Shown here in pieces: positions 2,416 through 5,774 of a DNA stretch of 24,995 nucleotides. Source of the DNA: a virus. The position numbers and the translations under genes are program-made. Positions within the stretch are counted from its first letter, which is position 1; every line of letters starts with the position of its first letter. The notes below the pieces were generated by a model. That model did not search any database and was not told the origin of the DNA. It was given only the letters and a program-made list of their open reading frames with translations. The stretch lies in IMG/VR virus record IMGVR_UViG_3300047552_000886, positions 1 through 24,995 of that record. The stretch is one strand, 5' to 3'.

Positions 2416-2481
2416 CTATAACTGTATGAAGTAAGTAGAAACGTATTCAAGACGCGGGTTCGATTCCCGCCAGCTACACCA

Positions 2482-2557
2482 TAAATATCTATTCTCTTTA
2501 GTGAAACCCAAATGCTAGGGTGTAGCATTACTAAAGAGCGCAATGGATATTTATAAT
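2482..2557 (+). other. Intervening segment of permuted tmRNA, excised hairpin
   Basis: This segment joins the mature 3' CCA to the mature 5' G of the tmRNA. It folds into one long hairpin: ATAAATATC (2481-2489) with GATATTTAT (2546-2554), then CTCTTTAGT (2494-2502) with ACTAAAGAG (2530-2538), then AATGCTA (2511-2517) with TAGCATT (2523-2529). Such a loop is cut out by tRNA-type end processing in other permuted tmRNAs. RNase P at 2557/2558 and a 3' nuclease after 2481 are expected here by analogy. Confidence 0.85.
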
Positions 2558-2640
2558 GTGGCTGACCTGGTTTCGATTGGGTAAAGAGTACACAAACAGA
2601 CAGTTCGCCAAGAAAGGCGTTAAAATCACAAACTATAAAT

Positions 2641-2682
2641 GCAAACGATGCGTTTTACGGAGAAGTTCGCTTAGCTGCTTAA
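2641..2682 (+). other. tmRNA tag-peptide reading frame ANDAFYGEVRLAA
   Basis: Resume codon GCA at 2641, thirteen codons, then TAA at 2680-2682. AND- at the start and -LAA at the end are standard for proteobacterial tags; the LAA end is the ClpX/ClpA degron. The GEVRLAA end is closer to rhizobial-type tags ending RLAA than to the enterobacterial ENYALAA. Confidence 0.9.
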
Positions 2683-2826
2683 GCTTTTCCTGAGGTTTAA
2701 CCCATTTTCCTTATAAAAGAATAAGTGGGCATTAATTAGCATAGTGCATTGGACCCTGGGAACTACGTGAAAGCGTACTATAAAATGAATGCAGTTATAG
2801 GTACTGTGCTAATTAATAAAAACTAA

Positions 2827-5065: not shown

Positions 5066-5341
5066 ATGACTCGTAAAATTGTATTTTTCTACCACACTGG
5101 TTATTGCGGCTCTGACGGATGCGAAATGCACGAATATCCTGATGATGTTAGTGATAACGAACTTGATAATGTAGCTTGGCACGGTGCTCTAGATAACGCT
5201 GCCTCCTACGGGTATTACCCTACTTCAGACATGCCCGAAGATTACAATGACGAAGAATACGAAGGTGGGGACGAGTATTCTGACAATATCGAAGGCTATT
5301 GGGAAGAATATGACGCTGAAAAGCATGACGGACTATTCTGA
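5066..5341 (+). CDS. Acidic hypothetical protein, 91 aa
   Basis: Starts after GAGAAAGGA with a strong promoter of its own. The first half has a CGSDGCEMHEY motif (Cys pair and His), reminiscent of a small metal site. The second half is extremely acidic and Tyr-rich (DYNDEEYEGGDEYSDNIEGYWEEYDAE), as in some DNA-mimic or anti-defence proteins, but this resemblance is composition only. It overlaps the next gene by 17 bases. No family is recognised. Confidence 0.75.
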   Translation: MTRKIVFFYHTGYCGSDGCEMHEYPDDVSDNELDNVAWHGALDNAASYGYYPTSDMPEDYNDEEYEGGDEYSDNIEGYWEEYDAEKHDGLF

Positions 5342-5774
5342 TTTGACTGAAATTAAAGGCTTCTTTGGACCCTATAGGTGGTTATCTAACTTCTGTCTAG
5401 CAGACGTTGAGTATTCAGGAGTAATGTACCGATCAAATGAGCACGCGTATCAAGCCGCTAAAACTCTTAGTGAAAGAGAGCGTGCTTGGTTTACTGACCC
5501 TAAAACCACTTGTGGTAAGGCTAAAAGGCTCGGCTTAGTGGTTACTATGCGTGACGATTGGAACGAGATCAAGTATAGTGTAATGTATGATCTCAACCGC
5601 CAAAAGTACTTTAATCACGAAGATTTGAAGCAAATGCTATTGGATACAGGTATGATGTACCTAGAGGAAACAAATACCTGGGGTGATAGATACTGGGGTG
5701 TTTGTGATGGAGTCGGTGAAAATAATCTCGGTAAAATCCTGATGCAGATTAGGAAGGAATTAAAGAATGGTTGA
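5325..5774 (+). CDS. NADAR-family protein (YbiA-like, DUF1768)
   Basis: About 149 aa. Diagnostic motifs are FFGPYRWLSNF near the N-terminus, SNEHAYQAAKT (the E-x-x-Q-x-x-K signature) and the C-terminal WGVCDGVGENNLGKILMQIR. NADAR proteins are N-glycosidase-type enzymes. E. coli YbiA/RibX acts on riboflavin intermediates, and other members remove ADP-ribose from modified guanosine as partners of DarT-type toxins. Which chemistry applies here is not readable. The start at ATG 5325 gives MTDYSDLTEIKGFFG; an alternative ATG at 5310 has GGGAAG upstream. The end overlaps the next ATG by 8 bases. Confidence 0.88.
   Translation: MTDYSDLTEIKGFFGPYRWLSNFCLADVEYSGVMYRSNEHAYQAAKTLSERERAWFTDPKTTCGKAKRLGLVVTMRDDWNEIKYSVMYDLNRQKYFNHEDLKQMLLDTGMMYLEETNTWGDRYWGVCDGVGENNLGKILMQIRKELKNG

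Follow-up and report, generated by a model that had tools for sequence, protein, structure and literature searches.

On the evidence of its sequence, the stretch between positions 2416 and 2820 of the window (a linear virus record of 24,995 bases, IMGVR_UViG_3300047552_000886, taken here in its entirety) is a complete gene for a circularly permuted tmRNA; its outer limits, 2416 and 2820, are approximate. The Rfam model for permuted tmRNA (RF04321, tmRNA_permuted) aligns over its full length (model positions 1–213) with positions 2420–2682 (+), scoring 123.5 bits (E 4.5e-24) against a cut-off of 47, and we see all of the elements expected of a member: the order of the two pieces, a 7-bp acceptor stem with G3-U70 and CCA, the T arm, a P2 helix formed across the pieces, and a tag frame closed by a stop codon. 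The betaproteobacterial model (RF01850, beta_tmRNA) aligns with 2367–2738, downstream stem included, at 85.3 bits, a marginal score lying ~1 bit over its curated cut-off of 84; with the threshold relaxed, it remains the best-scoring model of the clan at this locus. The encoded tag, ANDAFYGEVRLAA, is not of the ANDE..A.AA type found in the bacterial members of RF01850. The original prediction of a phage-encoded, circularly permuted tmRNA with a tag, its acceptor half lying upstream, is therefore upheld by the covariance search against Rfam that it had itself proposed, both models scoring over cut-off; the acceptor stem, T arm, cross-piece P2 and full tag frame that it had read by eye were likewise all located.

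Judged by gene content, the record is viral and is that of a T5-like phage: its PolA shares 48% identity with the PolA of T5-like Vibrio phages over 99% of its length, and other genes encode a split NAD ligase, a DnaB-like helicase, a primase, a helicase, ThyX and a NAPRTase-family protein. The last of these (nicotinamide phosphoribosyltransferase; 32–1096) lies in the same phage region as a NADAR domain protein (5247–5774), a pair possibly serving NAD-related counter-defence. An 80-aa ORF ends immediately 5′ of the tmRNA gene (~2416). Directly beyond its other end there is a tRNA-Ser-like gene (2827–2917; anticodon TGA by eye) that ARAGORN misses, and which in Rfam scores 42.2 bits as tRNA-Sec, under the cut-off of 47. 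ARAGORN calls ten tRNAs in the window and does not call the tmRNA gene; across the family of related tags described below, it independently recognises 71 of the 73 members parsed, labelling them ‘tmRNA*’ (permuted) and giving identical tags; the window is among the two missed. The acceptor stem of the window carries U2-A71 in place of G2-C71, differing in this from 72 of the 73 family members—a possible cause of the miss.

Table 1. Elements of the permuted tmRNA gene, in window coordinates.
Element	Positions	Strand	Evidence
3′ (acceptor) piece; 5′ end approximate	2416–2481	+	RF04321 match from 2420; RF01850; CCA 2479–2481
Outer P2 strand AACUG, partner CAGUU 2601–2605	2420–2424	+	RF04321 alignment
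P2a, 3′-piece strand UAUUCAA	2444–2450	+	7/7 standard pairs with UUGGGUA 2577–2583
T arm GCGGG-UUCGAUU-CCCGC; stem 2454–2458/2466–2470, 5/5 pairs	2454–2470	+	Rfam; family comparison
Acceptor 3′ strand CAGCUAC 2471–2477, discriminator A2478 (A73), encoded CCA 2479–2481	2471–2481	+	
Intervening hairpin, 76 nt, probably removed from the precursor	2482–2557	+	Fold z −7.6; family stems
Acceptor 5′ strand GUGGCUG; 7/7 pairs including G3-U70; U2-A71	2558–2564	+	
Conserved UGGUUUCGA, tRNA-like domain	2568–2576	+	RF04321 alignment
P2a, 5′-piece strand UUGGGUA	2577–2583	+	RF04321; family comparison
Hairpin CGCC-AAGAAA-GGCG, upstream of resume codon	2606–2619	+	RF04321 alignment
Tag frame ANDAFYGEVRLAA and stop UAA; resume codon GCA at 2641, preceded by UAUAAAU	2641–2682	+	
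Possible helix at tag end, GGAGAAGU 2659–2666/GCUUUUCC 2683–2690	2659–2690	+	
Downstream stem CCCAUUU 2701–2707/AAGUGGG 2723–2729; loop has CCUUAU	2701–2729	+	RF01850 aligns
Long A+U-rich terminal hairpin, without U tract	2731–2817	+	Fold −28.3 kcal/mol, z −4.2

The hairpin joining the two pieces was foreseen at 76 bases, precisely the length that we find; folded together with the acceptor strands it reaches −40 kcal/mol, against −16.6 ± 3.1 for shuffled sequences (z −7.6). With CCA ending the first piece and the second beginning immediately after this fold, 2481/2482 and 2557/2558 stand as the predicted points of processing. No intrinsic terminator is called on the + strand 3′ of the gene. 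The possible helix at the end of the tag is not significant taken alone, such helices being no longer than those in shuffled sequences; the Gly-Glu codons might owe their conservation to an RNA helix. By eye we also see that CTATAACTG (2416–2424) is perfectly complementary to CAGTTATAG (2793–2801) in the terminal hairpin, a 9-nt pairing that would compete with the outer P2 helix; a rough count puts the chance expectation at ~0.03, and the pairing is not strong enough to claim.

Comparison across the family indicates that the structure of the tmRNA is under selection, as read from its pattern of substitution. In a set of 42 distinct family cores, whose kinship in sequence inflates the compensatory counts somewhat, the acceptor stem is 100% paired with 58 compensatory cells (shuffle maximum 26), the T stem 100% paired with 42 (shuffle maximum 18), and the cross-piece P2a 80% paired with 42 (shuffle maximum 22), a pairing that is lost when slid. 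Stems closing the intervening segment run to 6–13 bp or more in 39 of the 42 members, mostly 8–13, as against ≤7 in shuffles. G3-U70 is found in all 73 family members and ACCA in 68 of them, whilst the loop of the downstream stem holds CCUUAU or CCUUGU in 52 of 54 distinct relatives. In a tree built from the tmRNA without its tag (136 columns), the highest identity of the window tmRNA to any other is 72%, with its structural elements all intact. Three family members (L156 and two more) have T loops like GGCAGUA rather than the usual UUCGANN, with the tag intact. The tag has its own pattern of conservation: among 53 distinct 13-aa tags, Arg10 is kept in 47, Leu11 in 50 and Ala12-Ala13 in all 53, with synonymous codon changes at the Leu and Ala positions. 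Since the search pattern comprises only eight residues, this shared ending is independent evidence.

That pattern, ANDAF[YF]G[ED] following the resume motif, was scanned for in IMG/VR and in genomes. A further 88 viral contigs contain it, and of the 50 tag-bearing contigs tested, 49 score above the Rfam threshold for permuted tmRNA. It has no match in 84,980 bacterial and archaeal genomes (GTDB; 257 billion bases); the exact tag of the window occurs only once. The looser ANDAF[YF] matches 33 genome stretches, which shows that the scan works. A single one of these resembles a tmRNA, in a metagenome-assembled genome (L184, JAKQDR010000036.1), and the remainder were rejected, continuing as ordinary or chance sequence. 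The L184 contig, the only one labelled bacterial to bear a tmRNA-like ANDAF tag, encodes a permuted tmRNA with a different tag, ANDAFFLQAANA. Permuted tags sampled from the Burkholderiales take the form ANDE[RQHNS][FY]A[LIM]AA. The suggestion that the tag would differ from those of hosts thus proves stronger than claimed, the whole family being absent from every genome searched. The string ANDAFYG was not found in the part of the literature that was searched, and the family is apparently virus-only and new to the literature. A further viral permuted tmRNA (L060, G039:C1:10700-11013) has an unusually long tag of 26 aa, ANDDAFDFAAMSFNGNTVGGRVALAA.

Phage-borne permuted tmRNAs as such are already on record. 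Mycobacteriophage tmRNAs (Bxz1 and its kin) resemble that of the window in being phage-encoded with a tag of their own, but are one-piece with the standard gene order. A list of ssrA-bearing phages has been published (PMC4131195), and Buchholz et al. (2022) reported that phage Melnitz has a two-piece tmRNA and that, of 133 distinct phage tmRNA structures, 53 were called as two-piece (PMC9004378). The earlier remark that no characterised permuted phage tmRNA was known consequently does not hold; to these published cases we add eleven records of cultured or named phages that pass the Rfam cut-off, amongst them phages of Stenotrophomonas, Xanthomonas, Pseudomonas, Acinetobacter and Caulobacter, a cyanophage, a crAss-like phage and an acidobacterial phage. 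Separately, a scan of IMG/VR with one short motif gave 50 contigs, 32 with a permuted tmRNA over cut-off. The genes called as two-piece in that study, mostly from aquatic phages, are likewise phage-carried and circularly permuted, but that of Melnitz groups with alphaproteobacteria and has a glutamine riboswitch (PMC9004378), whereas the gene in the window scores best as beta type, belongs to a T5-like phage and encodes another tag. Its likeness to the betaproteobacterial tmRNAs extends over the whole of RF01850, with piece order, helices, resume region and downstream stem all aligning; those sampled, however, have 10-aa tags and intervening segments of 24–42 nt, as against 13 aa and 76 nt here. 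Also close in kind are the isolates Stenotrophomonas DLP_6 and Marzo, Xanthomonas Rb1 and XacN1, Pseudomonas PaMx31 and Acinetobacter BUCT628, all phage-borne, permuted and over cut-off, but with tags unlike that of the window (e.g. ANDDSFAPMAIAA, ANDDSYTVRIAA, ANDTSFDVRLAA and ANDNVFGAKTLAA). Permuted tmRNAs of the beta type are known from phages that infect Stenotrophomonas, Xanthomonas, Pseudomonas and Acinetobacter; the type of tmRNA therefore does not identify a host, and the idea that it points to the host lineage has to be given up. Several hosts of the eleven phages have a one-piece tmRNA. In Tunturiibacter phage Tunturi_4 (L275), an RF-1 domain release factor is annotated beside the permuted tmRNA (418–765, 770–1179), which suggests a combined ribosome-rescue cassette.

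Carriers of the tag fall into several groups by gene sharing. The largest, with ~60 loci and genes for PhoH, an exonuclease and a T4 gp32-like ssDNA-binding protein, we read as T4-like; further groups include nine with ribonucleotide reductase, three with topoisomerase, and the window with L131. The tag is present in at least four groups besides the main one. T5-like relatives L006 and L131 also carry a permuted tmRNA, and other tags are found amongst such relatives (ANDTQFALAA in L006, ANDEHFLMAA in L056). The idea that the tag arose once, on one backbone, was rejected, an AU test on only 136 columns refusing one clade (p 0.002). That leaves three possibilities: recombination carried the tag, the tmRNA bodies beneath a retained tag were exchanged, or the tags converged. 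A bolder reading, which we hold less likely than not, is that ANDAF[YF]G[ED]xRLAA is a degron owned by the phages—selected by them, common to unrelated groups, moved between backbones, and combining SspB- and ClpX-type ends with a longer spacer. The alternative, that a single phage lineage simply inherited the tag from a host lineage as yet unsequenced and that phages did not select it, seems to us rather unlikely. GTDB is without some hosts and most carriers belong to the one group of ~60 loci, as such an inheritance would have it, but the tag's presence in at least four other groups and on separate backbones (AU p 0.002) speaks against it, as do the parsed Burkholderiales permuted tags, 12 of 12 of which are ANDE-type. 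It concerns the tag only, and is compatible with a working two-piece tmRNA.

As to function, the gene very probably works, giving the phage a two-piece tmRNA that would be processed by the host, alanylated and delivered by host SmpB, freeing ribosomes and adding a ClpXP degron. If it behaves as permuted tmRNAs of bacteria do, host RNase P and 3′-trimming enzymes would cut at 2557/2558 and after the CCA at 2481; host AlaRS would charge the two-piece molecule through G3-U70, and host SmpB would bring it into stalled ribosomes. The ribosome would then add A+ANDAFYGEVRLAA (giving a product ending AANDAFYGEVRLAA) and terminate. Once the charged alanine is counted, the tag becomes AANDAFY-GEVR-LAA, keeping both the AAND-x-x-[Y/F] motif and the LAA end of known tags around a longer spacer, and is thus a predicted SspB–ClpXP degron. 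In E. coli, SspB recognises AANDENY and ClpX the ALAA end, and a longer stretch before ALAA gave better degradation by ClpXP without SspB (PMC8512704); because a longer spacer helped there, we infer an efficient degron here. If the E. coli data carry over to the host, tagged products would be good substrates for its ClpXP, and the phage would therefore free ribosomes and clear broken products during infection. No gene for SmpB was found in the window or in 47 other viral records, nor one for SspB in the same 48, records that may be fragments; with SmpB missing from them, the phage tmRNA would depend on the host for its function.

The same lack of a phage SmpB in the 48 records would also suit an RNA that mainly binds host SmpB or stalled ribosomes and blocks host trans-translation, its tag incidental, and there is a precedent of sorts in the tmRNA of phage DS6A, which has the tRNA-like domain only and resembles a tmRNA inhibitor, perhaps titrating SmpB (PMC4131195). 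Such a decoy would need neither resume region, full tag, stop codon nor downstream stem, all of which are kept, and the tag varies synonymously whilst conserving residues outside the search pattern; because the reading frame is conserved, we regard this as improbable. More improbable still is a host tmRNA gene recently captured (e.g. at an integration site) and carried without phage function: tmRNA genes commonly serve as integration sites and this one sits amid many phage tRNA genes, but the tag family is shared with 88 further viral contigs and absent from all 84,980 genomes, the nearest sequences are viral and ≤72% identical, and the gene is not truncated.

The usual view is that phages rely on the rescue system of their host. 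Whilst the phage two-piece tmRNA is already known, the tag family looks new, and being apparently confined to viral sequence it offers a mass-spectrometry marker to tell phage-tagged from host-tagged peptides; phage-run ribosome rescue therefore becomes testable. For annotation, the form of a tmRNA gene is no guide to the host, and divergent phage tmRNAs can escape ARAGORN. Should the tag indeed be a degron of the phages' own, infected cells would degrade phage-tagged products differently from those tagged by the host.
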